Positions 9,185 to 29,362 of a stretch of DNA of 29,428 nucleotides are shown here, piece by piece. The stretch is from a virus, in the IMG/VR virus record IMGVR_UViG_3300041964_000018, positions 1-29,428 of that record; one strand, given 5' to 3'. A program made the position numbers and the translations under genes. Numbering within the stretch: position 1 is the stretch's first letter; every line of letters begins with the position of its first letter. Under the pieces are notes generated by a model, which did not search any database, was not told the DNA's origin, and saw nothing but the letters and a program-made list of their open reading frames with translations.

Positions 9185-10408
9185 ATGAACACCCGACTGA
9201 TCGGGGCCGCTCCGCGCGCCCTGTGCGGTGTCGTGCGCGCTGATGCGTCCGACCCGAAGGCCATGATCGGCCAACTCCAAGCTGCGTTCGAGGCCTTCAA
9301 GACGGCCAACGACGAGAAGATCAGCGCCGCCAAGGCCGACGTGCTGAACGACGAGAAGGTGGTCCGGATCGACGATGCCGTGACCGCCCTTCAGGCGGAG
9401 ATCGACAAGGTCAACGCCGCGATGGCGGCTCGCCAGATCGGCGGCGGTCAGCAAGAGGTCCGCGACCCCGAGTACAACACGGCCTTCGCCGGCTACGTCC
9501 AGAAGGGCTCGGTGCAAGCCGCGCTCAACAAGGGCGCCGACGACGAGGGCGGCTATCTCACTCCCGTGGAGTGGGACCGCACGATCAACGACAAGCTGGT
9601 CGAGATCTCGCCCATGCGACAGCTGGCCACCGTCCGCCCCATCGGCGGCTCCGGTTACAAGACGCTGTTCAACATGCGCGGGACCGGCTCCGGCTGGGTC
9701 GGGGAAACGGCGCTCCGTCCGGAAACCTCCACGCCGGAGTTCGCTCCCCTGGCGTTCGCGTTCGGCGAGATCTACGCCAACCCGGCCGCGACGCAGCAGA
9801 TGCTGGACGACTCCGAGATCAACCTGGAGCAGTGGCTGGCCGGCGAGGTGAACACCGAGTTTGGCTATCAGGAGGGCCTGGCCTTCGTTTCCGGCAACGG
9901 CACGAACAAGCCCAACGGCTTCCTGACCTACGCGACGGGCGCGGCCAACGCCGCCACCCATCCGCTGGGCGCCATCCAGGTCACCACGGCCGCCTCGGCC
10001 ACGGCGGTGACCACGGACGAGCTGCTGGACGTGATCTACTCGGTCCCGGGTCAGCTCCTGCAGAACGCGCGGTGGACGATGAACCGCCTCACCATGTCCA
10101 AGATCCGCAAGCTCAAGGACGCCGACGGCAACTACCTCTGGCAGCCCTCGCTTGCGGCTGGAGAGCCGGCGGCGCTCATGGGCTTCCCGGTGACGGACAT
10201 GGCGGCCATGCCCAACGCCACGGCCGGCGCCTTGCCGATCGCCTTCGGCGACTTCCGCCGCGGCTATCTGATCCTCGATCGGATGGGCGTGCGGGTGCTC
10301 CGCGACCCCTACACCAACAAGCCCTACGTGATGTTCTACACCACGAAGCGCGTTGGCGGCGGCGTTCAGGACCCCACGGTGCTCCGCGCCGTGAAGATGG
10401 CGGCCTAA
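9185..10408 (+). CDS. major capsid protein (HK97 fold)
   Basis: A 407-residue HK97-type coat protein. Residues 24-85 form a charged coiled-coil delta-domain (AAFEAFKTANDEKISAAKAD and onward) that serves as built-in scaffold and is normally removed by the protease. The mature part starts near residue 95-120. Family blocks include GGYLTPVEWDRTINDKLVEI, PMRQLATVRPIGG, GWVGETALRPETSTPEF, and AFGEIYANPAATQQMLDD. Length and order are typical: directly after the protease and before the connector genes. A GC-rich hairpin with a weak T-rich tail follows the stop and may set capsid expression above that of the downstream genes. Confidence 0.93.
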   Translation: MNTRLIGAAPRALCGVVRADASDPKAMIGQLQAAFEAFKTANDEKISAAKADVLNDEKVVRIDDAVTALQAEIDKVNAAMAARQIGGGQQEVRDPEYNTAFAGYVQKGSVQAALNKGADDEGGYLTPVEWDRTINDKLVEISPMRQLATVRPIGGSGYKTLFNMRGTGSGWVGETALRPETSTPEFAPLAFAFGEIYANPAATQQMLDDSEINLEQWLAGEVNTEFGYQEGLAFVSGNGTNKPNGFLTYATGAANAATHPLGAIQVTTAASATAVTTDELLDVIYSVPGQLLQNARWTMNRLTMSKIRKLKDADGNYLWQPSLAAGEPAALMGFPVTDMAAMPNATAGALPIAFGDFRRGYLILDRMGVRVLRDPYTNKPYVMFYTTKRVGGGVQDPTVLRAVKMAA

Positions 10409-10422
10409 GGGCGGCTGAACCC

Positions 10423-10454
10423 GGGCGGGCTTGCGGGCCCGCCCACCTTTCCTT
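10423..10454 (+). terminator. terminator-like hairpin after the capsid gene
   Basis: GGGCGGGC (10423-10430) pairs with GCCCGCCC (10437-10444) over a six-base loop, giving an 8-bp all-GC stem. The bases that follow (acctttcctt) are T-rich but not a clean T-run, so it is probably a partial terminator or an mRNA-stabilising end for the abundant capsid transcript. The next gene follows 28 bases after the stem. Confidence 0.5.
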
Positions 10455-10471
10455 CCACAAAGGAGGCCGTC

Positions 10472-10855
10472 ATGGCCAAGAAGCCTACCCCGGCCGCCGC
10501 GCCGGAGAACCAAGCCGATGCTGCTGAGCGCTTCACGCAACAAGCTCTGGAACAGCAAATCGAAGCGGCCGACCGCGTCACGGCGACGGCAGCCGACGAG
10601 GGCCGCCTGCCCGAGAACGCGGCGGTGGCCAATCCCGCTCCCGCCCAAACGATGAACAACGCTGGCGGAGCCTTCGTCGAGCAGGAAGTCATCGACGGCA
10701 TCCCGGTCGACCATCCGTCGATCGAGAACAACCCGCGCCAGGGCACGTCAGGCATCCAGAACGGGGGCGATTTCAACGACCCCTTCGGGCGCAACCCCGG
10801 CGACGACGGCTTCACCGGCCAGGGCCTGGACCTGAGCGTCTACGGCAAGGGCTAA
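10472..10855 (+). CDS. hypothetical structural-region protein
   Basis: A 127-residue acidic, low-complexity protein rich in Ala, Asn, Pro and Gly. It reads as an N-terminal helix (AERFTQQALEQQIEAADRV) and a disordered, asparagine- and glycine-rich C-terminal half (NNPRQGTSGIQNGGDFNDPF). It has an excellent ribosome-binding site (caaaggaggccgtc). Its position between the capsid and the first connector is where decoration, head-fibre or minor head proteins occur in other phages, but nothing in the sequence confirms this. Composition alone does not identify a family. Confidence 0.65.
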   Translation: MAKKPTPAAAPENQADAAERFTQQALEQQIEAADRVTATAADEGRLPENAAVANPAPAQTMNNAGGAFVEQEVIDGIPVDHPSIENNPRQGTSGIQNGGDFNDPFGRNPGDDGFTGQGLDLSVYGKG

Positions 10856-10861
10856 ACTGAG

Positions 10862-11416
10862 ATGGCCGTCATCGTCATCACCCCGCCCGAGCCGCTGGTC
10901 GACCTCAACGAGACCAAGCAGTGGTTGCGGGTGGACCACGCTGACGATGACGGCCTTATCGCCGGCCTTATCGCTGCGGTGCAGAGCCACATCGACGGGC
11001 CGGATGGCGTGCTCGGCCGGGCCCTGGGCACCCAGATCCTGGAATACGGGCTGGACCGTTTTCATGGCCACCACATCGAACTGCCGTGCCCTCCGGTGAT
11101 CTCAATCGAGAGCGTCACCTACACCGGCCAAGCCGGCTCTGACGTGGCCTGGGCGGCTGGGTGGCGACTGTACGATGCCGGGCTTGAGCGGTGGTCGCTC
11201 GCGCCACTGTACGGCGGCTCCTGGCCTTCAGTTCGATACGACCGACGCTCCGTCCGCATCCGCTACCGTGCAGGCTACGAGACGCTCCCGGCGGCCGTGC
11301 CGCTCGCGGTGAAGCGGATGGTGGCACACCTCTACGACAACCGCGCCTCCGCCCCCGCTGACGCCATGAAGGCTGTCGCGGCGGAGCTCGGACACCTCAA
11401 GATCTACCGCGTCTAG
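10862..11416 (+). CDS. head-tail connector protein (gp6-like)
   Basis: A 184-residue protein of the phage connector family typified by HK97 gp6, which forms the ring under the portal. The N-terminus (PLVDLNETKQWLRVDHADDD followed by GLIAGLIAAVQSHID) is the recognisable helical part. A middle beta region (PPVISIESVTYTG, SVRIRYRAGYETLP) and a C-terminal helix (AVPLAVKRMVAHLYDNR) complete the pattern. Length fits the family. It sits 6 bases after the previous gene and begins the connector block. Confidence 0.85.
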   Translation: MAVIVITPPEPLVDLNETKQWLRVDHADDDGLIAGLIAAVQSHIDGPDGVLGRALGTQILEYGLDRFHGHHIELPCPPVISIESVTYTGQAGSDVAWAAGWRLYDAGLERWSLAPLYGGSWPSVRYDRRSVRIRYRAGYETLPAAVPLAVKRMVAHLYDNRASAPADAMKAVAAELGHLKIYRV

Positions 11417-11426
11417 GAGACCGACC

Positions 11427-11615
11427 ATGCGCGTGAAGCTGCTTCGCGACCGCGACCTCGTGCCCCCGAACGAGCCCCGGATCACCGTCGCCTACAAGAA
11501 GGGCTGGGAGGGCACGGTGAAGCGCGAGTGGGGAGACATCCTCGTCGCCGACAAGAACGCCGAAGAGGTGCCCGCACCGCCGCGTGACGGCAAGGCCGAT
11601 GCCCGGGGCGGGTGA
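11427..11615 (+). CDS. hypothetical small protein in connector block
   Basis: A 62-residue protein with a beta-rich core (VKLLRDRDLVPPNEPRITVA, then KKGWEGTVKREWGDILV) and a disordered proline- and lysine-containing tail. Short proteins of this kind often lie between gp6-like and adaptor genes in phages of alphaproteobacteria; I know no function. Its ATG follows an aggagaccgacc site, and its end overlaps the start of the head-tail adaptor gene by about 17 bases. Confidence 0.65.
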   Translation: MRVKLLRDRDLVPPNEPRITVAYKKGWEGTVKREWGDILVADKNAEEVPAPPRDGKADARGG

Positions 11616-11931
11616 TCTCCGTGAGCGGGTTGGCTTTTGGGTCCGCGGCCTGGACGAGAACGACGACCGCCTTGGCCCGGAAGCCGAGCAGTTCGTCCGC
11701 TCCGCCCAAGCCATCCCTCTCCGTGGCGGTGAGGCGGTCCTGGCGGGTCGGCTGGCGGGGACGAAGCCGACAGTGATCGTGGTCCGCGAGGACAGCCAGA
11801 CGCGCACGGTCGACACCGACTGGAAGCTCCGGATCGCGGAGGGGCTGTTCAAGGGCGATTACGAGATCAGGCAGGTGGCGCCCAACAAGCAGCGGGGGTT
11901 TCTAGATTTCACCGTAGAGGCTGCGGCGTAG
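11599..11931 (+). CDS. head-tail adaptor / head closure protein
   Basis: A 110-residue protein of the phage head-tail joining family (SPP1 gp16-like), which closes the head after packaging. The pattern is GDLRERVGFWVRGLDEN near the N-terminus, the middle TVIVVREDSQTRTVDTDWKL, and the end YEIRQVAPNKQRGFLDFTVE. The ATG at 11599 gives the usual start (MPGAGDLRERV) and has a short AAGG; a GTG at 11584 would add five residues. The gene starts inside the previous one and its TAG shares a base with the next GTG, so all three are tightly coupled. Confidence 0.8.
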   Translation: MPGAGDLRERVGFWVRGLDENDDRLGPEAEQFVRSAQAIPLRGGEAVLAGRLAGTKPTVIVVREDSQTRTVDTDWKLRIAEGLFKGDYEIRQVAPNKQRGFLDFTVEAAA

Positions 11932-12371
11932 TGGCCGAGTTCAGCGCCGCGGCGAAGGCCCGCGCGATCCGGCGCATGGGGCGGCTGCACCCCTCCATCA
12001 CGCGCAAGGTGAAGGAGCGGCTCGCCGATGATGCGGCTTCCCTCGTGGAGTACCAGAAGCGCATCGTGCCCGTGCGGAGCGGCACCCTTCGCGACACGAT
12101 CAAGAACGAGGACGTCTCGGACGAAAGTCGCATTGCACAGAAGCTGACGGCGGGAGGCCCGGCGACCACGGTGAAGGTTCGCGGCGGCGTTTCCGACCAG
12201 GATTTCGCGGCCGGCAACGGGGCTTACGACTACGCTCGCGGGGTCGAGTTCGGGACCAGCGACACGCCGGCCTTGCCCTTCTTCTTCGTCGCCTACCGCA
12301 ACCGGAAACCGAAGATCCAGGCCAACCTCGCGGCGGCGGCCGAGGACGGGATTGACGAGGCGCTGTCATGA
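11931..12371 (+). CDS. HK97 gp10-like tail/head-tail joining protein
   Basis: A 146-residue protein of the HK97 gp10 family, which acts at the head-tail junction or tail terminator. Key blocks are VEYQKRIVPVRSGTLRDTIK (residues 42-61), which is the family signature, and YARGVEFGTSDTPALPFFFVA near the C-terminus, followed by a helix. The GTG start overlaps the previous stop by one base (tagtgg), and its end overlaps the next ATG (ATGA). Length is normal. Confidence 0.85.
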   Translation: MAEFSAAAKARAIRRMGRLHPSITRKVKERLADDAASLVEYQKRIVPVRSGTLRDTIKNEDVSDESRIAQKLTAGGPATTVKVRGGVSDQDFAAGNGAYDYARGVEFGTSDTPALPFFFVAYRNRKPKIQANLAAAAEDGIDEALS

Positions 12372-12757
12372 GCGATCCCGCTGCAGCGATCCGAGCGGCC
12401 TTCATCGCACGGATGCGGACGGCAATGGTCGGCGTGGCCAAGGTCTATGACGAGGTCCCGAGCACGCGGACCTGGCCGTACCTGGCCCTCCGCGCGATCC
12501 AGACGATCCCGCGGGAAACGGAGTGCTCGTCGGGGTCGGAAACCTTCATCGACTTCGACGGCTGGTCCAAGAAGCTGAACCACGCCGAGACGGATGCCAT
12601 GCGGGCGGCGGCTCGCGAGGCGCTCAAGACGGACCTGGTCGTGCCCGGCCACGAGGTCATCATCCAAGAGTTCGAGGGAGGCCAAGCCACTGGCGACCCC
12701 GACCCCAGCATCGCGCGCGTCGCGATGAGCCTGCGCCTGGAAACAGAGCCGGCCTAA
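12368..12757 (+). CDS. tail terminator-like protein (DUF3168)
   Basis: A 129-residue protein that fits the DUF3168/gp17-like tail completion family. These proteins cap the tail tube and stop its growth at the set length. Features are an N-terminal helix (DPAAAIRAAFIARMRTAM), VYDEVPSTRTWPYLALRA, and the later FIDFDGWSKKLNHAETDAM followed by a beta-rich end. It begins on an ATGA overlap with the gp10-like gene and is the last gene before the short spacer preceding the major tail protein, which is the normal order. Confidence 0.82.
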   Translation: MSDPAAAIRAAFIARMRTAMVGVAKVYDEVPSTRTWPYLALRAIQTIPRETECSSGSETFIDFDGWSKKLNHAETDAMRAAAREALKTDLVVPGHEVIIQEFEGGQATGDPDPSIARVAMSLRLETEPA

Positions 12758-12794
12758 CCGCCCCGCGTGGGCTTCTACCTCAGGAGACTACACA

Positions 12795-13235
12795 ATGGCC
12801 GCAGTAAATGCGTTCAAGGGGCAGCTTATGGCCCTTCAAATCGGCGACGGCGCTGAGCCGGAAGTTTTCGGCCCCTTCTGCTCCATCAACGCCGAGCGGG
12901 GAATCAGCTTCACCGCCGAGACCAACGACGTCGCTCTTCCCGACTGCACGGATTTGGAGCTCGTGGACTGGATCGCTCGGGAGAAGGTTAGCCTTTCCGC
13001 CGGGATCACGGGCTCGGGGATGCTGGACAAGGCGGATGTTCCGAAGTTCTACGCCTTCCTCGCCGACACCGAGTCCCGCGGTTGCCGGCTCACCATACCG
13101 GGTCCTGGCGGCACGCTCTTTGCGGGCAAGTTCCACCTGACCGGCTTTGAGATCACCGGCGCCCGCAATGAGCGCTCAACGTGCTCCATCACGCTGGCCT
13201 CTGACGGCCCTGTCACCGCAACGCCGATCACCTAA
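12795..13235 (+). CDS. major tail (tube) protein
   Basis: A 146-residue tail tube protein of the TP901-1/major tail protein 2 type, which polymerises on the tape measure to form the tube. Family blocks include FKGQLMALQIGDG near the start, a central KVSLSAGITGSGMLDKADVP, and a beta-strand C-terminus (AGKFHLTGFEITGARNERS). The ATG has a caggagactacacaatg context close to that of two early genes. The preceding spacer of about 37 bases, unusual in this packed operon, may allow separate mRNA processing or strong initiation. Its TAA overlaps the ATG of the chaperone gene. Confidence 0.85.
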   Translation: MAAVNAFKGQLMALQIGDGAEPEVFGPFCSINAERGISFTAETNDVALPDCTDLELVDWIAREKVSLSAGITGSGMLDKADVPKFYAFLADTESRGCRLTIPGPGGTLFAGKFHLTGFEITGARNERSTCSITLASDGPVTATPIT

Positions 13236-13794
13236 TGAGCCGATCGGCAAGCATTCCCCTGGTCTTCGGTGACGGGGAGCACACCTTCAGGCTCGGCATC
13301 GGACAGCTCGCCGAGCTCGACGAGAAATGCGACGCCGGTCCCATGGAGCAGCTCGCCCGGATGCAAGCCGGAACCTGGCGGATCAAGGATCTCCGGGAAA
13401 CGATCCGGCTAGGGCTGATAGGCGGGGGTCTCCCTGCTGCTGACGCCTTCCGGCTGGTCCAGCGGTACGTCGATGAGCGGCCGCTGGCGGAGAGCGTGCC
13501 GATCGCTATGGCGGTGCTCTACGCCTGTGTGGTGGGCGACCCCGGAGACGAGCCGGGGGAGGGCGAGGCGGGGACGGAAACGGCGACCGACCCCGCGGCA
13601 AGCTCGACTTCGCCGGACTCTACGGCAGCGGCGCGGCCCTCGGGTGGACGCCGCGCCAAGTCGACGCCTGCAGCCTCTGGGAACTCGGAGCCGCCGTCGA
13701 CGGGTGGATGAAGGCGAACGGAGCGGAGCAGTCCGCACGCCCGCCGACCGAGGAAGAGCACGAAGCCTTGCTGGCTCAGGTCAGTGGGGGTTAG
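13235..13794 (+). CDS. tail assembly chaperone with probable -1 frameshift product
   Basis: The zero frame (13235-13711) opens with SIPLVFGDGEHTFRLGIGQL and has the look of GTA gp10-like chaperones (Phage_TAC_11); it degenerates after about residue 107 into low-complexity Ser/Thr/Ala sequence. The -1 frame is open from 13477 to 13794, has no ATG, GTG or TTG before its protein-like part, and encodes KLDFAGLYGSGAALGWTPRQ followed by a W-rich helical block to AQVSGG. A -1 shift would give a fused protein of about 186 residues beside the shorter one, as in lambda gpG/gpGT. The best slippery candidate is GGGGGAG at 13555-13561, an imperfect heptamer. A plain one-base deletion is the alternative. 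Confidence 0.75.
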
Positions 13795-13803
13795 CCTCGC
13801 CTC

Positions 13804-13986
13804 ATGAACGAGACCGATAGACCACACGGCGCGAGCCGGGACGCGGAGATGATCGCGCTTGCGATCTACAATCAGTGGTTCAGGCGCGGCTTCTACTTCG
13901 GAATAGGCTTCTGGCTGGCGGGTGTGGTGGCGATGCTCATCACGGCCTTCTTCATCCTCCTGATGCTGGGCTCCGCCGGCGTCTGA
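13804..13986 (+). CDS. small membrane protein between chaperone and tape measure
   Basis: A 60-residue protein with a polar N-terminus (NETDRPHGASRDAEMIALAI) and a long hydrophobic stretch from about residue 29 (FYFGIGFWLAGVVAMLITAFFILLMLG). That stretch is long enough for one span, or a tight hairpin of two. It has only a weak ribosome-binding site. A membrane protein at this place is unexpected in a tail operon; it could be a superinfection-exclusion factor, or help tail tips at the membrane. It ends just before a strong terminator hairpin. Confidence 0.6.
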   Translation: MNETDRPHGASRDAEMIALAIYNQWFRRGFYFGIGFWLAGVVAMLITAFFILLMLGSAGV

Positions 13987-14004
13987 ACCACCTACCTTTG
14001 AACG

Positions 14005-14042
14005 AAGCAGGCCGCTCTCCGGGGCGGCCTTTTTCATGGGAG
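14005..14042 (+). repeat. 38-bp direct repeat, copy 1 (terminator plus ribosome-binding site)
   Basis: This 38-bp segment is identical to 21982-22019. Each copy contains a complete intrinsic terminator and ends in gggag, which serves as ribosome-binding site for the next gene (ATG at 14048 here and 22025 for the other copy). The flanks differ on both sides. No other copy was noticed in the window. Confidence 0.9.
14010..14034 (+). terminator. intrinsic terminator with UCCG tetraloop before the tape measure gene
   Basis: GGCCGCTC pairs with GGGCGGCC (one G-T pair) closing a TCCG loop on a C-G pair, an extra-stable UNCG tetraloop, followed immediately by five T. It is a strong Rho-independent terminator by form and lies in the middle of the tail operon, so transcription of the tape measure and later genes must read through it or restart after it. 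Confidence 0.8.
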
Positions 14043-14047
14043 CTTCA

Positions 14048-16690
14048 ATGGCCCGCGACATCGAAGCGCTCCAGCTCGTCATCACCGCCAACACGCGACA
14101 GCTCGAAGCCTCGATGGACCGGGCTTCAGCCCAAACCGGCAAAGCTCTCGCCGTCATTGAGAACCGCGCGACGCAGACCGAAGGTCGGCTGGCCCGGCTG
14201 GGTGCGAGCTTCAAGGGCGGGCTGTTTGGCAACGTCTTCTCGGAGGCCCGCAATCAGATGCAGGGCTTCGCAGGTCAGATCCCGGTTGTGGGCGGCGCTC
14301 TTTCTGGATTGACGGGCCCGCTTCTCGCCCTGTCTGGCGCTGCGGTGGCGGCCTCTGTGGGGCTCGACCGAGCCCGCAAGGCGATGCAGTTCGCCGACGA
14401 CTTGGTGACGTCTGCGGACAAGCTCGGCGTGGGTGTCGAGGCCCTTCAAGAGCTCCGCGCCGCGGCCGAGGCCAGCGACGTCCCGGTGGCGAAGCTGGAT
14501 GACGGGCTCGCCAAGCTCACGAGAACGATCGGGGCGGTGCAGACCGGTCTAGGCGGTAAGGAGGCGAAAAAGGCCTTCGCCACCCTCGACATCACTCCCG
14601 AACAGCTGGCCAACATCCGGACGGCCGACGAGATCATACCGCTACTCGCGGACAAGCTGAGCGCGATCAGCGGCACGGCCGCCGAAACCCAGATCGCCAA
14701 GAAGCTCGGCATTGAGGATTTGCTGCCCCTCCTTCGCCAAGGCAGCGCCGGGTTGAGCGAGCTTCGCGAGGAAGCCCGCGCTCTGGGCATCGTCATGTCC
14801 GACGACGTCGCGCGCCGGGCGGCTGACGCGAACGAGGAGCTGCGGATCGCGGGCGAGGTGATCAGCAAAAACCTGACGATCGCCTTCGCAGAGCTCGCCC
14901 CGTACATCGCCAACGCAACATCGGCGATGGCCGACCAGATACCCAAGCTGGCGGAGTTGGTCCGCCAGGCTGCAGCCTTCGGGATGCAGGTGAGCGACGT
15001 CTTCAACCGGGCGGCTCGCGGCTACGCGGCGGCCCAAGACTACGCCACGGCGACGGGCAAGCTGCTCCGCGACCCTCGGCAGGGCCGAGAGGCGTTCGGA
15101 GTGGCCCGCGGCCGGCAGCGCGGGCGCGTGGCCGCTGCGGCGCAAGCCGAACGCGAGGCGCAGGATAAGCGCAACTTCAACCTGTTCGGGACGAACCCTC
15201 GCCCGGTAGTCGACACGCCGGACGTGGGTGGCTTCAACCCTGCGGTCGACCCGCCCCGTCGCACCCGCACGCCGCGCGCTCGCAAGGGCCCGCGCGGCAA
15301 GAGCGCGGAGCAACTGGCTCGGGAGGCCGAACGCGCCGCGCAAGAGGCTCTCCGCCGGCTTCGCGACTACGAGGATGCGGTGGACGGCATCGCCAGCCGC
15401 GACCTGTCCGCGCGGGAGGCCGCCGCGAAGACGGCGGAAGAGCGTTACGAGCTCGGCCGCGAGCGCGCCGGCATGGAGCGGGAACAGCTCGTCGAGGAGC
15501 GCGCCCGAGCCGTGCAGGACGGCAAGCTGACCCAGGCCCAAGCCGATCGGCTGAACGCCTTGGACGCCAGCGTGGACATCCTTGAGGACCAGAACGCAGT
15601 CGCAGAGCTGACCCGAGCTATTGAGGAGCGCGCCGCCAAAGCCGCGGAGGAGGTCTATCGCCTCAGCGCCGAGGCCTTGGGCATCGAAGCTGGCATGGCC
15701 ACCACGCTCACGCAGCGGGCGGAGGTTGAGCGTCGCATCCTGGCCCTGGCCCAGGCGGAGGAGCGGCGTCGGCTTGAGCAAGAGATAGCGGCTGGAGAAA
15801 TCTCCAACCCGCAGGCCGCCCGCTACAATCTCGGCACCCGACAAGCCGGAGAGCGCAGCGCCCAAACCGCCAACCCCCTCGGCCGCGGCCCTCTGGACGC
15901 AGGCGCGGACCAGATCGCCAACGGCATTCTCGACCAGGACGGAGCCGCGGATCGCTACGCCGCGGAGATGGCCCGCATCCAGGAGCTGCGGAACCAGAAC
16001 GTCCTGAGCGAGCAGCAGGCTCAACAGGCCATGGCGCAGTCAGCCGCCGCCTACAATGAACAGCGGCTTGCCGGGGCGCAGTCGTTCTTCGGCGCCCTGT
16101 CTGGCCTGGCCAACAGCGAGAACAAGAAGCTGGCCGCAATCGGCAAGGCTGCAGCCATCGCACAGGCCACCATCGACGGCGTGTTGGCGGTTCAGAAGGC
16201 GCTCGCCTCCGTGCCGCCGCCGTACAACTTCGCGGTCGCCGCGGCGGTGGGCGCGGTCGCGGCTGTGAACGTGGCCAAGATCGCCGGGTTCGAAAAGGGC
16301 GGCTGGACGGGCCCGGGGGCGCGGAACAAGCCGGCCGGCATCGTTCACGCCGAAGAGATGGTGATCCGCAAGGGCCCGGCGGCCGACTTCCGCGCCGAGT
16401 TGGAGCACCTGAACCGCACGGGCAAACTGCCTGGCTACGCGACCGGCGGCTTCGTCATGCCGTCCGCCCCGCGCCTGCCGAGCATGGACCGGATTGCTGC
16501 AGTGACGTCGGCTCGGCCCGTGGCGGCTCCTGTCCAGCACTTCTCCGTTGATGCACGGGGGGCGATCTTGGCCGACACCCTGATGAGCCAGATGCGGGAG
16601 GTGGGCGCGCGTGCGGTGGTGGGCGGTTCCCGCCAAGCGCAAGCCGATCTCGCCAAGCGCGAACGTTACAACCTCAACGCCGCGCGATGA
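14048..16690 (+). CDS. tail tape measure protein
   Basis: An 880-residue tape measure protein that sets tail length and helps DNA pass into the host. The N-terminus (IEALQLVITANTRQLEASMD) is typical. A glycine/alanine-rich hydrophobic segment around residues 75-105 (PVVGGALSGLTGPLLALSGA) could insert in a membrane. Long coiled-coil stretches rich in Ala, Glu and Arg follow to about 640. The C-terminus holds a second hydrophobic block (FAVAAAVGAVAAVNVAKIAG) and the widespread ending FEKGGWTGPG...PAGIVHAEEMVI. ATG 14048 is preferred to 14036 because gggagcttca is its ribosome-binding site and MARDIEAL is the family-like start. Its length would predict a tail of roughly 130 nm by the usual scaling. 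Confidence 0.93.
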   Translation: MARDIEALQLVITANTRQLEASMDRASAQTGKALAVIENRATQTEGRLARLGASFKGGLFGNVFSEARNQMQGFAGQIPVVGGALSGLTGPLLALSGAAVAASVGLDRARKAMQFADDLVTSADKLGVGVEALQELRAAAEASDVPVAKLDDGLAKLTRTIGAVQTGLGGKEAKKAFATLDITPEQLANIRTADEIIPLLADKLSAISGTAAETQIAKKLGIEDLLPLLRQGSAGLSELREEARALGIVMSDDVARRAADANEELRIAGEVISKNLTIAFAELAPYIANATSAMADQIPKLAELVRQAAAFGMQVSDVFNRAARGYAAAQDYATATGKLLRDPRQGREAFGVARGRQRGRVAAAAQAEREAQDKRNFNLFGTNPRPVVDTPDVGGFNPAVDPPRRTRTPRARKGPRGKSAEQLAREAERAAQEALRRLRDYEDAVDGIASRDLSAREAAAKTAEERYELGRERAGMEREQLVEERARAVQDGKLTQAQADRLNALDASVDILEDQNAVAELTRAIEERAAKAAEEVYRLSAEALGIEAGMATTLTQRAEVERRILALAQAEERRRLEQEIAAGEISNPQAARYNLGTRQAGERSAQTANPLGRGPLDAGADQIANGILDQDGAADRYAAEMARIQELRNQNVLSEQQAQQAMAQSAAAYNEQRLAGAQSFFGALSGLANSENKKLAAIGKAAAIAQATIDGVLAVQKALASVPPPYNFAVAAAVGAVAAVNVAKIAGFEKGGWTGPGARNKPAGIVHAEEMVIRKGPAADFRAELEHLNRTGKLPGYATGGFVMPSAPRLPSMDRIAAVTSARPVAAPVQHFSVDARGAILADTLMSQMREVGARAVVGGSRQAQADLAKRERYNLNAAR

Positions 16691-17295
16691 CCGTCTTCTT
16701 TCCTATCTGCCCCGACCCGACGCGCCCGGGGAACGACTGGAATGTGCGTCCGATCGAGTTCGGAGTGCCCCTGCGTCCTGCGTCTGGTGGTCCGGTCCGC
16801 CGCCTTAACCGGCCGGGCAACCGGTTCGCCTTGGACATAACCTTCGGGCCTATGCGCTACGCCGACATCGGCCGGATTTGGGCCTCACGGCTGCTCCAAG
16901 GAGCGACCGACACCGTTGCCATGCGGCTACCCCAGCCGGGCTACAAGACGGGAAACCCAGGCAATCCAGTAGCGGACGGCGCGGGCCAAACGGGGCAGTT
17001 GCTCGCCATGAGGGGGCTCGTGCCCGGCTACCTCATCCAAGAGGGGCAGGCATTTAGCCTGATCGTTAGCGGCCAGCGCTATGACTACTTCGCCGTGGCC
17101 GACGTGGCCGCCGACGGCACCGGCCGGGCTCCTGTCGTGATCCGCCCGATGATCCGCAAGAGCCCCCCTGACGGTGCGGTGGTCGAGCTAGGGCAGCCCG
17201 TCATTGAGGGCTTCCTCGTGGGTGATCCGTCTGGATGGACCGGGCGCGCCGCCAAGACTGTCGGCATCAGCTTCACGATCGAGGAGCGCGCATAA
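16687..17295 (+). CDS. distal tail / minor tail protein
   Basis: A 202-residue beta-rich protein starting on an ATGA overlap with the tape measure stop. Blocks are PDPTRPGNDWNVRPIEFGVP, the central NRFALDITFGPMRYADIGRI, and GQAFSLIVSGQRYDYF. The position directly after the tape measure is that of distal tail proteins (Dit) or GTA gp12-like proteins, which form the ring linking tube and hub. I assign it by position and beta-rich character more than by a strict motif. It has no cysteine-rich or enzymatic feature. Confidence 0.65.
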   Translation: MTVFFPICPDPTRPGNDWNVRPIEFGVPLRPASGGPVRRLNRPGNRFALDITFGPMRYADIGRIWASRLLQGATDTVAMRLPQPGYKTGNPGNPVADGAGQTGQLLAMRGLVPGYLIQEGQAFSLIVSGQRYDYFAVADVAADGTGRAPVVIRPMIRKSPPDGAVVELGQPVIEGFLVGDPSGWTGRAAKTVGISFTIEERA

Positions 17296-17298
17296 GTC

Positions 17299-17937
17299 AT
17301 GCCTCTCGATCCAGCCATGAACGGCGCGCTCTCGGGCGCGACGGCGACCCTCTGCGGCCTGATCGAGGTCCGGCTTCCCACGCGCACCCTGCGCTGGATC
17401 GACGGCTCGGCCGACGTGACGTGGAACAACCAGGTCTTCACGGGCGAGGATCCCGAGTTCGGGGCCATCGACTCCATCAGCGAGCTTTCGGACGGGCTCG
17501 GGGAGAACGCTCCCTCCGCCACCCTGACCGTGCTCCCGCCCACGAACACCGCGGCGGCGACGCTGGCCAACCCGACGCACCAGGGGTCCGAAGTTTCCAT
17601 CCTGGCGGCCGTGGTCGACCCGGTGACCGGGACGGTGACGGGCACGCCCTATGCCCTGTTTGAGGGCGAGCTGGACGTGCCGCGCCTGCGGATGGGCGAG
17701 GGGGAGCGCTCGCTGGAAATCGAGATCGTCAGCGTGTTTGAGCGCTTCTTTGAAGTGAGCGAGGGCGCCCGGCTGTCCAACGCGCACCATCAATCCGTCT
17801 GGCCCGGAGAGCTCGGCTTCGATCAGGTCACCGGAGTCGGCACGCCTCGCTACTGGGGTGCCGATGGTCCGAAGCCTGCCGTGGTGGTGGGGGCGACGCT
17901 CGTCGGGCGCGGCGGCGGCGGCGGACAGATCAGCTGA
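17299..17937 (+). CDS. baseplate hub-like tail protein (DUF2163-like)
   Basis: A 212-residue protein. The N-terminus (ATLCGLIEVRLPTRTLRWID) and the segment around residues 155-170 (NAHHQSVWPGELGFDQVTGV) resemble the DUF2163/GTA gp13-like hub proteins, which form part of the tail tip. In GTA and related siphophages the gene order tape measure, Dit, hub, NlpC-like peptidase, tip protein is conserved, and that order is found here. The C-terminus is glycine-rich and may be flexible. It ends on a TGATG overlap with the next gene. Confidence 0.65.
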   Translation: MPLDPAMNGALSGATATLCGLIEVRLPTRTLRWIDGSADVTWNNQVFTGEDPEFGAIDSISELSDGLGENAPSATLTVLPPTNTAAATLANPTHQGSEVSILAAVVDPVTGTVTGTPYALFEGELDVPRLRMGEGERSLEIEIVSVFERFFEVSEGARLSNAHHQSVWPGELGFDQVTGVGTPRYWGADGPKPAVVVGATLVGRGGGGGQIS

Positions 17938-18368
17938 TGGCCAAGCCGAAGCCCATCATCCTGCAGCGCCGTGACGCCGCTCAAGCCGCGGTGCAGCGCT
18001 TCAAGGATCGGCCCCATCGCTGGTCGTCAAACGACTGCGCTCGGATGGTGGCCTTCACCCTCCGCAAGCTGGGCCACAAGCCGCCCATGCCTAGGGCCGG
18101 GAGCTATCGCTCGGCCCTGACTGCCCGGAAGGCCTTGCACGCCGCGGGGTTCAAAAGCCTGGAGGACGCGCTGGACGGCATGGGCCTGCCCCGCATCGGC
18201 TGGGCCTCTGCCGTTGTGGCGGACATCGTCGCCATGGAGGGCGAGGACGGCTGGCTGGCGCTGGGTGTTGCGGTCGGGAACGGCCGGGTCCTAGCCTACC
18301 ACGTCGACGCGCCCGGGGCCGTCATCGTCCAGCCCACGAACGTGCTGATCGCCTGGAGGTCTGTCTGA
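17937..18368 (+). CDS. tail-associated cysteine protein (DUF6950/NlpC-P60-like)
   Basis: A 143-residue protein with RFKDRPHRWSSNDCARMVAF (residues 21-40), where Cys34 sits at the start of a helix as in NlpC/P60 peptidases and in DUF6950 proteins. A possible partner His occurs late, in VLAYHVDAPG. In GTA and lambda-like tails the matching protein cuts peptidoglycan during DNA entry or helps tip assembly. Whether this one is active is uncertain because a full Cys-His-polar triad is not proven. It overlaps genes on both sides (TGATG), so it is made together with the hub and the tip. Confidence 0.7.
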   Translation: MAKPKPIILQRRDAAQAAVQRFKDRPHRWSSNDCARMVAFTLRKLGHKPPMPRAGSYRSALTARKALHAAGFKSLEDALDGMGLPRIGWASAVVADIVAMEGEDGWLALGVAVGNGRVLAYHVDAPGAVIVQPTNVLIAWRSV

Positions 18369-21300
18369 TGGCCAAGGCGCTCAAGTCCGCTGGCGACGTC
18401 GTCGTGAAGGTGGCGAGCTTCGGGCTGATCGGCCTTGCCGGCGGCCTGTTGTCGAAGCCGCCGCTTCAGACCACGGGGGCGCAATCCGAGTTCAGGGCCG
18501 ATCCGCAGGCCGGCATTCCGTACGCCATGGGCCGCACCATGACGCGCGGCAACATCGTCGCGGAGTTCGGGTCGGGCGATAAGAACAACTACAAGACCTT
18601 CGCGGTGGTGCTCTCCGGCGGGGGGCCGCACCAGGCGATCGAGCGGTTCGAGGCCGGCGGCGAGGTCGTCCAGTTCACCCAAGACCAGGGAGAAGGCGCG
18701 ACCGGCCGCTGGCGGCATCGCATGTGGATGCGGACGTCGTTGGGCGGCCAAGGGCTACCGGCGCTCCGGCTCACCAGCACGGGGACGAAGGACACCCCCG
18801 GGGACCACAACGGCCACCCCGCGGAATGGACCACGGCGCACAAGCTGTCGGGCTACGCGCACGCGCTTTGGTGTCTCCGCTACGACACGGAGAAGTACCC
18901 GAACGGCGCTCCTGAACCGGGCTGGGTCGGGCTGTGGGCCAAGGTCTATGATCCTCGCAAGGACAGCACCTATCCGGGCGGCTCCGGGCCACACAGGGCG
19001 CTGAACGAAGCGACGTACGAGTGGTCCGAGAACCCGTGGCTCCACGCCCTGACGTGGAACCTCGGCCGGTGGCAGAACGGCAAGTGCGTCCTGGGCGTCG
19101 GGGCTCCCATCCGCCTGATCGACGTCGCGGCGTTCGTCGAGGCGGCCAACGTCGCCCACCTCAACAACTGGACGTTGGGCGGTGTGGTCTACACCACGCA
19201 AGGTAAGTGGGACCCGCTCAAGCAGATGTGCCAGGCGGGCGGCGGCGAGCCGCTACGGTTGGGCGCCCGGCTGAGCTGCTTCGTCAATATGCCCCGGGTG
19301 TCGCTGGACGCGGTGACCCGCGACGACATCATCGGCTCGGCTTCGGTGGACGGCAGCCGTTCGCGGCGAGAGCGCATCAACCGGATCATCCCCCGCTATC
19401 GCAGCGAGGCGCACGGCTGGGAGATCGTCGCGGCCTCGCCCATCGTGGTGCCTGAGCACGTCCTGGAGGACGGAGGTGAGCGCACGCGCGAGCGGGATTA
19501 CCCGCTGGTGCAGGACGTGGCCCAGGTTGGGCAGCTCGCCCGCTACGACATCGAGAACGAGCGCGAGCTCCCGGGCGAACTCCTGCTCATGCCCCGCTTC
19601 ATGGGCTACGAGCCGGGCGACTGCCTGACCGTCACCGAACCCGAGCTGGGGCTCAACGGGCAAAAGGTCGTCATCCTAAATCGCGGCTTCGACCCCGTGT
19701 CTGGCGCCGTCACCTTCGCGGTCCGAACGGAGACGGACGCCAAGCATCCGTTCGCTCTCGAGCAGACGACGACAGCCCCCCCCACGCCCGCGCTGACGGG
19801 CTTCGACCCCTCTGTGGTGCTCGCCCCCGGCGCGGGGTCGTTCCAAGCCGCTGCGGCGGCTGTGACGGGCGTCGGCGGCGCACAGGTCCCGGTGGTGCGG
19901 ATCACGGGCGAGCGGGACGACCCTGCGGCCCTGGACATCCTCGTCGGCTATCGTCGCGTTGGACTGGACAATCTCCCGCTCGAGGAGTGGCGCTGGGAGG
20001 TCTACCCGGGGACGGAGATCCGGATTGACCTGAGGGGGCTCGCCCCAGGCGCCCGCTATGAGATCGCGGTTCGTTACAGGACCGTTCGAGGCGTCGACGA
20101 CCCGACGACCTATCGGTCGCTCGGCTTCTTCCTGATCCCCGACCTGATCGCGTCGGACATCGCCGCAGACTCGCCCTTCGGAACCCAGCTATTCGATCTT
20201 CGGACGGAGGTGGACGACCTGGTTGCCGGCGGTCTGGAGTTTGTCACCGCCGAGCTTGAGGGTGCGTTCGTCAAGCGGATCGAGCTGGAGGATGCGGCCT
20301 ACGCGACCGTGGGCAACATCCTCCAGACTGTGGAGGAGGTGAAGGCTCGCAAGCTGGCCACCCACATCGCTGGCGAGCCTATCGGGCCAATCGTCGCCGC
20401 GGAACAGGTCCGCACCGACACCGCGATCAGCACGCTGGGCATCATCGGAACGGTCACGGAGGACGGCCTCGCGTTCCAAGTCGATCGCACGAAGTTCCTG
20501 GTGGAGAACGGTAAGAGCCTGGCCACGCGCGACAGCGAGATCGTGGCGCAGTTCGCGGGCGAGGCGACCAGCTACCTCAGATCAAGGCCGAGCTCGGGGC
20601 AGAGAAGGGCGTCGCTTCGGCTGAGACCCTGACCCAGATGGGCGCCATCCTGGGGCAGGGGCAGGCCTTCACCCTCGACTGGACGCGGGTCAAGGCGGGC
20701 TCGGACCAGACCATTGCCCAGCGAGACACGTTGATTGAGGCGCGGTTCGCCGGCACGTCGACCTCGTTCCTCCTCACCTCAACCCAAAACGCTGCCAGCC
20801 AGGCCGAGGCTGCGGCGTCGACGCTCACCCAGATGGGCGCGGTGCTCGGCAACGGCTCAGCCTTCACGCTTACGGCGGAGCGGATCAAGGTCACTCTCAC
20901 CGAGAGCCTGGCCGAACGGGTCAGCCTGATCGAGAACCGCTTCGGCGCGACCGCCAGCTCCGTCCTGCTGACGCGCACCAACTCCGCGGTTACCGACTCC
21001 ACAGCTGCTCTCGACACGCTCACCCAGATGGGCGTGACGGTGAACCAGGGCGCGGCTTGGAATCTGAGCGCGGCCAAAGTCCTGGTCGCCCCGGGCGAAC
21101 TGCTCAGCCAGCGGCTGGAGAGCGTCGGGGTCAAGCTCGGGACCGAGATCGAGTCACGGATCGACACCAGGATCACAACCGGCATCGGGCCGGGCGGACC
21201 TATCGCCGAATACGTCACCAGCGCCATCGCTACGGGGCAGGGGGCGGTGGCGCGCTTCATCCTGTCGGCGGAGGCCAGCGGAAGCCGTCCGGCGCTCCTT

Positions 21301-21955
21301 ACGCTGGAGTCCGGTGGTGGCTCCTCGAACATCGCCCTGCGCGCCGCAGAGGTGTTCTTCGGCGACAACACCGTCTTCGACGATGCCAGCAACACGTTCC
21401 AAAGCGTGGCGAACGGCCGACGCTTCATCCTCGGAGGCCCGTTCGGAGCGGAGGGGCTGACCCAATGGCTGGGCGACGCCGCCCTGAGCGCGAGCTCCGC
21501 CAGCCGCGCCAACGCCAACTTCTACGTCGCGACCACCCAGCCCCGGATCGGCGGTAGCGACTTCCCGACCGGCGGCCTTGCCGGTGCGACCCGTCGCCGG
21601 GCCTCCACCCCCATCAGCGGAACACAGCGGGCCAACGCCGTGAACTTCGGCCAGAGCGGGGCCGCGCTGCTGGACGTCAACCTGTTCCTGGGATCGCCCC
21701 AGTCCGCAAGCCAGAACGTGTCGGGGATCATCTTCATCGACCAGGGCGCGGGCAACAGCTGGAGCTACGTCGCCGACGTGCCCTTCACGATCACCAGCGA
21801 GGGCGCGGGGATCTACAGCGTCAACCCCGGACACGGCGGGGCTCTCCGGCCTGTCCATCACCTCGCCTGAGGTGAGCATCGTCGTCCAGATCAACAGCGG
21901 GACGGTGAGCAACTGGCCCGTCGTTCTCGACGCCTACCGCTGGCCCGCCGCCTAG
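18368..21955 (+). CDS. tail tip / host-specificity protein, two one-base frameshifts
   Basis: A receptor-recognition or hub protein comparable in role to lambda J, about 1195 residues when mended. The N-terminal third (KSAGDVVVKVASFGLIGLAG, FRADPQAGIPYAMGRTMTRG) and middle (YSWEN-like, LGGVVYTTQGKWDPLKQMCQ) resemble phage tip attachment proteins; a beta-sandwich region lies near residues 510-590. A C-terminal array of 65-residue repeats follows. The frame from 18368 breaks at about 20577 (one C missing in tacctcag) and continues to 21870. An extra C at about 21825-21828 then hides the true end, VQINSGTVSNWPVVLDAYRW and on to TAG at 21955. The ATG has ggaggtctgtctg upstream. Confidence 0.8.
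20432..21210 (+). repeat. tandem 195-bp repeats encoding 65-residue units in the tip protein
   Basis: Four units start at 20432, 20626, 20821 and 21016, each opening with a block like TLTQMGAVLGNGSAFTL. The last three are exactly 195 bp apart. The first step is 194 bp, which is what one deleted base at about 20577 would give. The units diverge outside the opening block but keep IEARF or IENRF, S.LL and an alanine-rich end. The pattern suggests a shaft made of repeated coiled or beta modules. Confidence 0.8.
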
Positions 21956-21981
21956 GCCCGACCGCCACCACCACCAATCGC

Positions 21982-22019
21982 AAGCAGGCCGCTCTCCGGG
22001 GCGGCCTTTTTCATGGGAG
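21982..22019 (+). repeat. 38-bp direct repeat, copy 2 (terminator plus ribosome-binding site)
   Basis: Identical over 38 bp to 14005-14042, 7977 bp away. It lies between the tip protein stop and the tail fibre ATG at 22025, and it supplies the fibre gene's ribosome-binding site (gggagg). The perfect identity suggests recent duplication, gene conversion, or strong selection. Confidence 0.9.
21987..22011 (+). terminator. intrinsic terminator with UCCG tetraloop before the fibre gene
   Basis: Same hairpin as at 14010-14034: an 8-bp stem (GGCCGCTC/GGGCGGCC) with a TCCG loop and a five-T tract. It ends the tip gene transcript in the absence of readthrough, and the fibre gene would need antitermination or a separate promoter, which I do not see. 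Confidence 0.8.
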
Positions 22020-22024
22020 GCCGC

Positions 22025-24479
22025 ATGGCCATCACCAGCGAACAATTCGCTGACAGCGACACCGCGCTCATTGAGCAGCGTATCGCCGACACGATCAGTG
22101 CTGCAGTCTTTGCCGCTCAACGCAGGTCCCTGGTCGTCAACGCTGGTGGCATCTTCATGCCCGGCAAGTTCGCCGCTCGGCTGGAGGAGTACACCAACGG
22201 CGAGCAACCCGCCAAACGGAGCTCCGCAACTGGTGGGCGGGTGAGGCGGACGGCGGACCCAATGGCGACGGCCTCTTCCCGTTCACGAACGACCTTGGCG
22301 TCATCACCTACCTCCCGTCGCCGGCGAAGATCATCACTCAGGTGGCCAAGGGCGATCCGGGCGCCGACGCCGGGGTTCGATACAGGTTCTCCACGGCAAC
22401 CGCCGACGCCAACCCGGGGAACGGCTACCTCCGCCTGAACAACGCGAACCCGGCGCTGGCGACGCGCATCTATATCCATGACGCCGACGCAGACGGTCAG
22501 TCCTTCGGGGCCATCGTCGGACAGTGGATCCAGAACGGCACGCGGGGCGAGATCATCCTCCGCCAGCGCGGCAGCACCTTTTACCGTCAGTTCCGAGTGA
22601 CGGGCTTCGACCCGGCGCAACCCTTCTACCAAGAGATACACGTGGAGCACCGCGGCGGCGGGGGCGTGTTCGTCAATGACGCCGAGCTGCTGCTGTCGCT
22701 GCTAGAGCGCGGGCCGCAGGGCGACGTAGGTCCGGCGCCGGCGATTACGTTCGCGCCTACCGTCACGGGCGCCCGGGATCCTCCGCCAGCGTCGCGGTCG
22801 GCGGCACGGCCCAGGCACCCCAGCTCACTTTCACCATCCCAAGAGGTGACCCGGGCACCGGCGACATGCTGGCGGCCAACAATCTGAGCGACCTGGCGGA
22901 CAAGCCGGCGGGTCGCGCCAACCTTGGCGTCACCATCGCCGACATTGTGGGCCGGTCGTTCGTTGCGGCGCCCTATGGGACCGCTGCACGCTCAACGCTT
23001 CAGCGGCTCGGGGAGGAGATCAACGTCAGGGAGCTTTATGAGGGCGAGGCGAACCACGTCCCCGCCTTCAACCGGGCTATCGCGCTTCTGAACGCGAGCA
23101 CCGCCACGTCGCGCCCTCGGTCGTGATGCGAGGGGTGTTCGACATCAGCTCCGGGGCGCTGAACACGATCCTGAAGAACCGCACAGAGTTTCGGGGGGTC
23201 GGCGACGGGACCCTCCTCATCATGCCCAACACGGGCGAGTCGTTCCGCTTCGGACAGGAGGGCTCCCGATGGTGGACGGCGGGGCGGTGCGCGACTGCAC
23301 GGTCTACAGCCCTGTTCCTGACGTCACCCAGTGCGCCTTTCGGCTACGCAACATAGCTCGCGCCCGCTTCAGCAACTCCGGGTGGAGAACGTCGGCTCAG
23401 TCTCGATCATGGGTGGGATACCGACCGGCGTGTTCTGCCAGGACATCAAGTTCAGAGATGTGAACGGCTACGTCGCCAACCTGGGTCAGAACGCCTTTGA
23501 TCTCGGAGAATAAAACGGGTTTGCGCTTTCGCGGTCCCAGATGTTCGTTGCTGGGGTTCCGGCAATCCAGAGTGCAACGGAAAACCTAGCAACCGCATCC
23601 GGCACCCGGTTTGTCACAGCAGGCGCGTTCTCCGTCGACACAATCCGGCTGTCGGACGTGTTTCCCGAGCGGTTCGACGCCATGCTCTATCTGGTGGCCC
23701 AATCCGGTCAGTCATCAACAATATCAAGGTTGACGGTGCGACGGCGGACTATTGCAACAACTCCATCGTAGCCTATGCCAATAGCGGCGGCGTCATCACC
23801 ACGCTGCACATCGGTAATTCTACCTGACCGGCTGGGGCGGCAATGCAATCGCTCTGGGAGCGGACGGAACAGGGCAGGGCGCGCGCGTCATGGTCGAGGG
23901 GTGCGCTCTCTTCACAAACCTTGCGCGAAGGCTTCGTGATGAGCCCGCGGTGGAAGAACGTCCACCTGACCGGGTTGCAAGTCTACGAGAACGACCGCGC
24001 GGGCCAAGGCCATCCGAGCGTCCACTTTGAGCCGGGGTGCGCCGCCTTCAGCCTGAGGGATAGCCAAGTCGGGTTCACCGAGCCGCACTTCGGCTACTCC
24101 TTCCGGGGGGATCACGGCGTGCGTGTTGGCGCGGATTGCGACGACTACAGCATCCAGGGCGTCCAAGCGTCCGGGGCCGTTGCTGGATGGGACATCGCGG
24201 CCAACACGCCGGATCGAAGAAGCGGAGCATCAAGAACAACGAGGGCGAGCCGAACTACGCAGACAGCAAGCCCTTCACCGTCCCGCATCTGGCGTCCCGT
24301 GGGTCAACCACCACGCCGCACAGGGTCACGCTCATTATGGGGGGCGGCAACGTCAGCGCCATCACCCTCGACGGAGTGTCCCTAGGGCGGGTGACCGGCA
24401 ACTATCCGGTGGCCCCCGGGCAGGCCTTCGCCATCACCTACAGCACGGCCCCGACCATCGCCATGTTCGTCGACGCTAG
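22025..24479 (+). pseudogene. tail fibre / tailspike gene, multiply frameshifted
   Basis: A fibre of about 818 residues read across three frames. Order: AITSEQFADSDTALIEQRIA (22025 on), TELRNWWAGEADGGPNGDGL, a collagen-like GPQGDVGPAPAITF, then GDMLAANNLSDLADKPAGRA at 22863, which is a common fibre motif. A middle of probable beta-helix follows (CAFRLRNIARARFSN, VSIMGGIPTGVFCQDIKFRD, NNIKVDGATADYCNNSIVAY, LREGFVMSPRWKNVHLTGLQ). The end (MGGGNVSAITLDGVSLG, AITYSTAPTIAMFVD) is that of tailspikes. Breaks lie near 22204, 22773, 23107, 23265, 23380, 23705, 23819, 23926, 24210 and 24470, nearly all single lost bases, plus an in-frame TAA at 23511. Continuity of protein across breaks argues for sequence error over decay. 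The end is placed at TAG 24477-24479. Confidence 0.65.
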
Positions 24480-25193
24480 CCATCGCCTGCACGCCTTCGT
24501 AGGCGACAACTTCATCCCGCGTCGGGTACGGCGGCACGGCGCACCCTCGGCGGCGCAACCACTCAACCCCGTTCGGGTCAGCTCACCGTCCACCATGGGC
24601 TCCTCCAGGAAAGCATGGTCCGGGTCGGCGCCCACGCCACCCCCGCCCGCCAGGGCCATTGCAGGACGCGGTCGTGGATGCTGTCCAGGCGGGCAAGCCC
24701 GTCAGTGTGCGTCGGAGAAGGCCCGCTCGGATGAGTGGTGATGGTAGAAGCCCGAAGCGCGCCGGGCGGTCTGTACCTTCATGGGAACGCCCCCCCACGG
24801 ATCGGTCCTCGCCCGGAACGACTCCTCCAGAGGGCGCACCAGCTTGACCCTCCTCAACCTCAGGCCCCGCTTCGTGCAGGCCCCGGAGTACGGTCGCGAT
24901 GGGCTTGGGCGTCTAGCTGCACCGGGAAGCGGTCCGTCGATGCACCAGAACACCCACTCCGCGTCGTCGAAGCCCTGCAGCAGGGCCTCGGCAGTCTCGG
25001 ACATCGGACTGGGGCAGCGGACCAGATCGCAGTCGGGCCGGCGTTCGAAGTAGTCGTGGGCCTCTGAGGAGCCGCCATTCACGGGCACCCGGAAGCGAAC
25101 GGGCATCTCGGGCCAAAGCGAGCGGTACTGCTTGTGCACCAGCTCCCCAAGGGAAAGCTGGGGATCGTAGGTGAAGAGAATGCCCGGGATCAT
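24476..25193 (-). CDS. glycosyltransferase-like protein, frameshifted
   Basis: Minus strand. The start is MIPGILFTYDPQLSLGELVH and continues with RSLWPEMPVRFRVPVNGG and GFDDAEWVFWCIDDRFPVQL when one extra base near 24935 is removed. IDDR could be the DxD-type metal site of a GT-A glycosyltransferase. Two more mends (near 24915 and 24870) join IATVLRGLHEAG to RVKLVRPLEESFRARTDPWG and SGFYHHH. Further fragments, DSIHDRVLQWPWRA and PDHAFLEEPMVDGELTRTG, continue to a likely stop at 24476-24478. Mended length is about 239 residues. It begins on an ATGA overlap with the sulfotransferase stop, so the two form an operon. The glycosyltransferase call is from the WCIDDRFP motif only; a hypothetical protein is the fallback. 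Confidence 0.5.
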
Positions 25194-25815
25194 GCCGCCA
25201 GTCCTGAGGGGTACCGAAACCGATCATAGTCTGACGCGAACCGCTCTCGAACGGCGTCTTGCGCACGGGTGTTCAAGAGGGCCCTCGCTCGGTCACCCGT
25301 CGTCGCCGCTGAACGGTTCAAGTGGGGCAGAGGTCTGTGTGGCAAGCCCACAGCGGTGCTGAGCGCCTCGTAGTCCGCCTCTAGGCGCTCTTGCCGGAGC
25401 ACGTAATCTGGCTCGCGGATCATACCCCCAACCGTGAGGAAGTCCGAGGCCGTATAGGTCTGGGCAACACAGTCCAGGAAGGCGTCCAGCGCCCATCGGG
25501 CCGCTCTAGCGTCCATCCATGCGGCGTCGGTCGATACCAGCGATGGGGCGAGAAGAACATGGAGACAGCTCGGGCCAACGGGTCCCGCACCGTGATCGCC
25601 ACCTGATACTCACTGATGTCCACCACCTGAGCGTACTCAGCCAAAGTCGCGTGCTTATGCGGGCTGATACCGCGAAGCTCGAAACGGTTCACGCCGTCCT
25701 GATGGCCCGACACCATGAAGGCGTCGTCTGAGAACTCCACGAGCCTGCTCTGTAGCGAGTTCCCGCCCGTCTTTGGGACGTGAAGCAGGATAAGGCCGAA
25801 CCGGCTGAATATCAT
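25190..25815 (-). CDS. sulfotransferase family protein, one-base frameshift
   Basis: Minus strand, about 208 residues when mended. ILLHVPKTGGNSLQSRL (residues 9-25) is the 5'-phosphosulfate-binding loop of sulfotransferases that use PAPS. AITVRDPLARAVSMFFSPHR (73-92) is the 3'-phosphate-binding site with Arg77 and Ser85. The second half (DAFLDCVAQTYTASDFLTVG, then REPDYVLRQERLEADYEALS) lies in another frame because one base is missing near 25510-25530. ATG 25815 gives the standard distance to the loop. The product would sulfate a carbohydrate, probably a surface polysaccharide of the host or a glycan on the virion. It sits beside the fibre gene and before a glycosyltransferase-like gene, which supports that reading. 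Confidence 0.75.
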
Positions 25816-25899
25816 GGGTCTCTTTCGGGCCCACCATAAGCGGACCGAAGCGTGGCTGTCACCACCCTCCGGCCCTGACCACACGAGAGGATGTCTCGC
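25816..25899. promoter_or_regulatory. divergent spacer between the sulfotransferase operon and the lysis genes
   Basis: About 84 bases separate the minus-strand sulfotransferase start from the plus-strand small ORF at 25900. Promoters for both directions would have to lie here, since the flanking genes point away from each other. I cannot identify convincing -35 and -10 boxes in this GC-rich stretch. Confidence 0.3.
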
Positions 25900-25950
25900 A
25901 TGGCTAAGCAGAACCTAGGCCGTGCGCCTTACCGAACGGTGGAGGGCTGA
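25900..25950 (+). CDS. possible short leader ORF before the lysis cassette (16 aa)
   Basis: A 16-residue frame, MAKQNLGRAPYRTVEG, with a gagagga site about eight bases upstream. It ends three bases before the ATG of the first membrane protein and could couple translation into it. An in-frame ATG at 25891 would add three residues. It may also be the remnant of a longer gene cut short by an indel, given the state of this region. Confidence 0.3.
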   Translation: MAKQNLGRAPYRTVEG

Positions 25951-25952
25951 AC

Positions 25953-26901: not shown

Positions 26902-26912
26902 GGAGGACAGCC

Positions 26913-28837: not shown

Positions 28838-28846
28838 CGCCCGCAG

Positions 28847-29127: not shown

Positions 29128-29169
29128 CCCCAGCCGGGAGTAAGGCGCCGGGGCGGAGGGGGTCAACGG

Positions 29170-29347: not shown

Positions 29348-29362
29348 CCCCTTCCTACCACG

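Follow-up and report, generated by a model that had tools for sequence, protein, structure and literature searches.

Why does a phage genome carry the same 38 bp, letter for letter, directly ahead of two different genes of its tail region? The question is raised by a 29,428-base virus record (hereafter the window, that is, the whole stretch of DNA that was analysed), in which positions 14005-14042 match positions 21982-22019 perfectly and the bases bordering the two copies differ on both sides. No other exact direct repeat in the window comes near this length, the runner-up measuring 18-19 bp (9065/9092). Chance cannot account for an exact 38-mer in a sequence of 29 kb, and the identity of the copies implies a copying event. 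The reading that we favor, with a probability of about 0.62, is that the two copies (T1 and T2) are intrinsic terminators of a late operon that directly adjoin the following gene's ribosome-binding site, that T1 closes a moron-like gene and that T2 is a copy of T1 placed at the border of the central tail fibre gene, J.

Structure and gene setting of the repeat

The genes of the window are arranged as in an HK97-type siphophage: TerL, portal, capsid, major tail protein, chaperones, tape measure protein (TMP), distal tail protein, DUF6950 protein, J and endolysin. The features that bear on the repeat are the following.

13235..13795, + strand, tail assembly chaperone region; its first ORF (13235-13711) belongs to phrog_8985
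13804..13986, + strand, 60-aa ORF located between T1 and the tail chaperones, with a single predicted membrane helix
14005..14042, + strand, repeat copy 1 (T1): hairpin 14009-14030, T-run 14030-14034, CATGGGAG 14035-14042
14048..16690, + strand, tail length tape measure protein gene (TMP), matching PHROG tape-measure families; start behind GGGAG
18368..21955, + strand, central tail fibre gene J, with frame breaks near 20.5-20.6 kb and 21.6-21.9 kb; stop codon TAG at 21953-21955
21982..22019, + strand, repeat copy 2 (T2): hairpin 21986-22007, T-run 22007-22011, CATGGGAG 22012-22019
22025..24385, + strand, one or more genes following J, perhaps encoding a tail fibre or spike; several broken frames, weak phrog_35140 match confined to 22342-22884

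Both copies contain the hairpin AGGCCGCTC-TCCG-GGGCGGCCT, which has 9 pairs (7 of them G-C) and the loop C(UCCG)G, and the hairpin with its T-run has an energy of -16.5 kcal/mol in each copy. Intrinsic terminators are recognized by a G+C-rich hairpin with a U run directly behind it, and this is what both copies have. Behind the T-run and CATGGGAG there are 5 nt and then an ATG start, at 14048 for copy 1 and at 22025 for copy 2; the ATG within the repeat (14036 and 22013) is likewise in frame. An earlier note on this DNA had described a perfect duplication, each copy joining a terminator-like hairpin with a UCCG loop closed by C-G to the gggag of the next gene, and all of this is borne out. The five T that it counted are present in both copies, but the first one pairs with the leading A, leaving four unpaired. 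The + strand of the window has no other T5 run. Terminator-like sites in 9500-29428 number 8 against 10.6 expected, a count not above chance, and T1 and T2 are the only matches in that interval in which a G+C-rich stem is followed directly by a pure T-run. The letters of the two copies thus support their description as terminator-like hairpins fused to the putative ribosome-binding site of the next gene. Rfam gave no match. A further strong hairpin, with a poor T tail, lies directly behind the capsid gene of the window (10423-10444), and a hairpin occupies the same position in Kronos (L009 6515), TMCBR2 (L010 6505) and HK97 (5192).

The hairpin of T1 starts 22 nt past the stop of the 60-aa ORF, giving the order tail chaperones, small ORF with a single, strongly hydrophobic helix, T1 and TMP. 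The second frame of the chaperone region (stop at about 13795, judged by eye) resembles the second small chaperone-like ORF of one related locus, L023. The stop of J lies about 30 nt upstream of T2, with no ORF between them. The earlier note placed both copies before large tail genes; this stands for copy 1, which precedes TMP, but the gene behind copy 2 is fragmented in the contig, with no clear family and no certain size. The stretch behind T2 had no phage match by DNA, nor by its first 61 residues. Between 20500 and 24800 the third-position G+C profile shows the coding signal switching frame in J and in the gene or genes behind it, which suggests assembly indels or decay; the frames of TerL, portal, capsid and TMP are, unlike this region, intact. 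An imperfect repeat also occurs three times in the C-terminal part of J, at intervals of 195 nt (65 codons; 20606-21034). Within the TMP gene, some 200 nt (16085-16282) are 77-80% identical to YuA-like Pseudomonas phages and other phages, and the remainder of the queried 4 kb has no such identity to them.

Judged by J, the relatives of the window are Caulobacter phages such as Kronos and loci in the genomes of Sphingomonas, Brevundimonas, Caulobacter and Asticcacaulis. No close relative of the window was found, and no IMG/VR relatives were confirmed for its TMP or, in a single-sequence query, for its J.

Putative terminators abutting the next gene in related loci

The loci fetched as relatives were scanned with one hairpin-plus-T rule, their genes being called by our own codon-usage script and not by a published caller. 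For the site density and later counts on this set, 195 loci were reduced to 157 non-redundant ones, leaving out the window and L001-L008 (copies of the window, and loci that owed their selection to the pattern or to junction similarity). Hairpin-U sites were about 12 times denser between genes (190 sites, 0.62/kb) than inside them (129 sites, 0.05/kb). Furthermore, 52 of the 144 sites with co-directional flanks end 10-20 nt before the next start, when about 19 would be expected if sites were placed at random in their own gaps, indicating that it is usual among the relatives for a terminator to adjoin the following ribosome-binding site. The genes behind such junctions include those for TMP, major tail protein, capsid, J and endolysin, and loops of the UNCG type (TTCG, TCCG) are common in the hairpins. 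We make no claim of base-pair covariation, because the hairpins were selected by pairing.

The same arrangement is annotated in HK97, whose late strand carries, in the first 20 kb, seven putative terminators that each end 5-13 nt before the next start and that sit behind the portal, capsid and major tail genes, among others. The repeat itself is therefore a type of punctuation for which HK97 already has annotated examples, and the suggestion that such an arrangement is unusual does not survive the comparison. The duplication is true and exact; it is ordinary in kind and unusual in being letter-perfect.

The slot upstream of the tape measure gene

Terminator junctions are concentrated at TMP, where they precede 10 of 77 starts against 49 of 2736 other co-directional starts (p 2.8e-6). 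A first, narrow test that counted only membrane helices in the ORF before TMP gave 1/14 with a terminator and 0/69 without, which is not significant. The definition was widened after this result by adding lipoprotein and signal-peptide patterns and by including capsid-anchored loci. Under the wider definition, an export-type ORF lies just upstream of TMP in 11/21 loci with a terminator and 5/101 without (p 7e-7, window counted), or in 10/20 and 5/101 when the window is removed. The association was then examined in a second set of loci, anchored on the chaperone, with thresholds fixed beforehand and no sequence in common with the first set (77 loci, of which 62 shared no sequence with the first set, reduced to 54; 43 gave a TMP). 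Here an export-type ORF preceded TMP in 6/6 loci with a terminator and 3/37 without (p 1.4e-5), figures that come nearer to 5/5 and 2/36 once near-duplicates are considered (L238 and L240 share one junction, L252 and L253 one ORF). We found no earlier account of this association in literature listings and claim no novelty for it. A hairpin abutting the ribosome-binding site of TMP thus points to a slot upstream in which small exported proteins are frequent.

A moron is by definition a unit of promoter, gene and terminator. The 60-aa ORF is an extra gene between genes that are adjacent in relatives: in HK022, gp14 is followed after about 20 nt by TMP, with neither gp15 nor a hairpin there, and in Kronos the annotated gene preceding TMP ends 4 nt before it. 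T1 would provide the ORF with a terminator of its own. No sigma-70-like promoter was found on the + strand of 9500-29428, using a consensus that may not suit the host. In HK97, the corresponding order is the moron gp15 (62 aa, with a membrane helix), an annotated putative terminator (8398-8422), the 12 nt atgggtgaaaat and the start of TMP (gp16). The HK97 gp15 protein is reportedly a superinfection-exclusion factor that targets DNA entry by the tape-measure route.

The proteins encoded in the slot vary from phage to phage. That of the window matches no family in PHROG, nor any in Pfam above the cut-off; those of L277 and L252 match phrog_8032, those of L119 and L075 phrog_2320, and gp15 phrog_5031. 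Because different genes occupy one slot, we regard it as a moron-like site. L023 has a lipoprotein-like ORF in the same place, followed by AGGCCGTCCTTCGGGGCGGCCTTTTTCATGGGTG and TMP. Small, mutually similar lipoproteins lie directly upstream of TMP in L075 (14562-15032), L119 (4304-4657), L117 (3752-4192) and L176 (4434-4778) and have in common a motif that reads by eye roughly DPDSA-F-DV. Upstream of TMP in L015 (14790-14826) there is an inverted repeat with no T-run, one arm of which contains GGAGG (by eye); it could hide a ribosome-binding site instead of ending transcription.

In the reading that we favor, T1 and T2 would act as intrinsic terminators within the late (structural) operon, each lying directly before the ribosome-binding site of the gene that follows, with T1 closing a small moron-like membrane-protein gene placed between the tail chaperones and TMP, in the slot of HK97 gp15. 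T1 would then keep transcripts of the small gene, in a lysogen for example, out of the tail genes. Late transcription in HK97 depends on antitermination, and late transcripts of the window may likewise pass T1 by antitermination or by leakage. Such readthrough would expose the GGGAG right behind the hairpin and allow TMP to be translated. T2, located where J gives way to the next gene, may reduce or gate expression of that gene.

We also put forward, as a tentative proposal whose truth we would not presume, that a swappable slot directly upstream of TMP is common to HK97-type phages of alpha- and gammaproteobacteria and is composed of a small membrane-protein or lipoprotein gene and a terminator fused to the ribosome-binding site of TMP. 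The slot proteins might be superinfection-exclusion factors directed against DNA entry by way of the tape measure, as gp15, and the junction might be copied intact to another tail-gene border. The TMP-slot hairpin offers a simple sequence handle on candidate superinfection-exclusion genes in uncultured phages and opens a test of whether slot proteins act on the tape measure.

A terminator does not presuppose a moron, because 10/21 TMP loci with a terminator have no export-type ORF just upstream and no ORF separates J from T2. The same 10 loci are what would be expected if the hairpins were attenuators of expression level that step transcription down from high-copy proteins (major tail protein, chaperones) to low-copy ones (TMP, fibre), with no moron needed. 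Junctions before the major tail protein, major capsid, J and endolysin genes also fit this explanation, as do the putative HK97 terminators behind the portal, capsid and major tail genes. We nevertheless consider it unlikely. About four in five TMP genes (101/122) have no terminator, so that one is not needed for stoichiometry, and the strong association with an extra export-type ORF at TMP, found in both sets of loci, argues for the moron-like slot.

Origin of the second copy

The pattern hairpin-CCTTTTTCATGGG-start recurs directly before TMP in L023, L240, L261 and L197, and a looser version of the junction is found before TMP in L231, L221, L277 and HK97. No hairpin was detected within 250 nt past the end of the J frame in 102 loci, a count that is not de-duplicated and in which the window, though included, is missed, its J frame being broken. 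As the junction recurs before TMP and not after J, the place of copy 1 is probably ancestral and copy 2 probably derives from it. The sequence TTTTCATGGG is not limited to TMP, since it follows a hairpin before J in L039 and before an endolysin gene in L177, and convergence or further copying is therefore possible elsewhere.

The earlier note proposed a mobile or converted cassette that serves as a recombination joint for swapping tail modules. The two exact copies, both at module borders, invite this explanation, and two other loci have same-genome pairs of junctions about 80% alike (L119 and L139). However, the search for the 38-mer in related genomes that the note had suggested as a check did not find the cassette outside the window: an exact 36-base pattern covering it was in no other IMG/VR contig, and 33 of its bases, allowing up to 3 mismatches, were in none of 390 Caulobacteraceae genomes and none of 23 genomes holding J relatives. 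The position of copy 2 is, moreover, not common to the relatives (0/102), and the resemblance of terminators within a genome is otherwise near chance. A mobile cassette or a joint for swapping modules is thus very unlikely.

The pairs in L119 (4687, 8811) and L139 (3831, 4855) are the nearest parallels to that of the window, each having one junction before TMP and the other before another tail gene. With the window included, 6 of 148 same-genome terminator pairs reached a similarity of at least 0.6, when shuffled labels gave a mean of 2.1 and a maximum of 9. A general homogenisation of terminators within a genome was considered and set aside as weak, same-genome resemblance being near chance.

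That the duplication is an assembly artefact, a false duplication or a false join at a short repeat, is still less probable. The broken frames in J and behind it would suit an imperfect assembly, and no close relative was found in which the duplication could be compared in a second genome. A false join would, however, mix the flanks, and both have the expected order (chaperone, small ORF and TMP; J and the next gene); L023 and others also carry a near-homologous counterpart of T1 in the same position.

Comparison with known systems

The start-associated sequences of cluster K mycobacteriophages and their extended forms (SAS/ESAS) share with the window a repeated sequence and inverted repeats just upstream of start codons. 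In the excerpted account of PMC3203893, they have a 13-bp GGGATAGGAGCCC core and 17-bp imperfect inverted repeats and occur in 11-19 copies in the non-structural half of the genome. That the 38-mer is a translation-initiation element of this type is hardly credible, as it has a different consensus with neither that core nor such 17-bp inverted repeats, carries a T-run and is present in only two copies, both among structural (tail) genes.

The closest parallel is the gp15/terminator/gp16 junction of HK97, which reads hairpin, TTTTTTTT, atgggtgaaaat and ATG. Like the window, it has a gene for a small, one-helix membrane protein between the tail chaperones and TMP, a hairpin with a T-run and an ATGGG stretch, and the start codon lies 12 nt from the T-run in HK97 and 13 nt in the window. 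The small proteins themselves have no relation detectable by family search, gp15 matching phrog_5031 and the 60-aa ORF no family. A second, identical terminator, located after J, and the lack of a recognised promoter also set the window apart from HK97. The late-gene terminators of HK97 are, as in the window, intergenic and close to the next start; all seven differ in sequence, whereas the pair in the window is identical over 38 bp.
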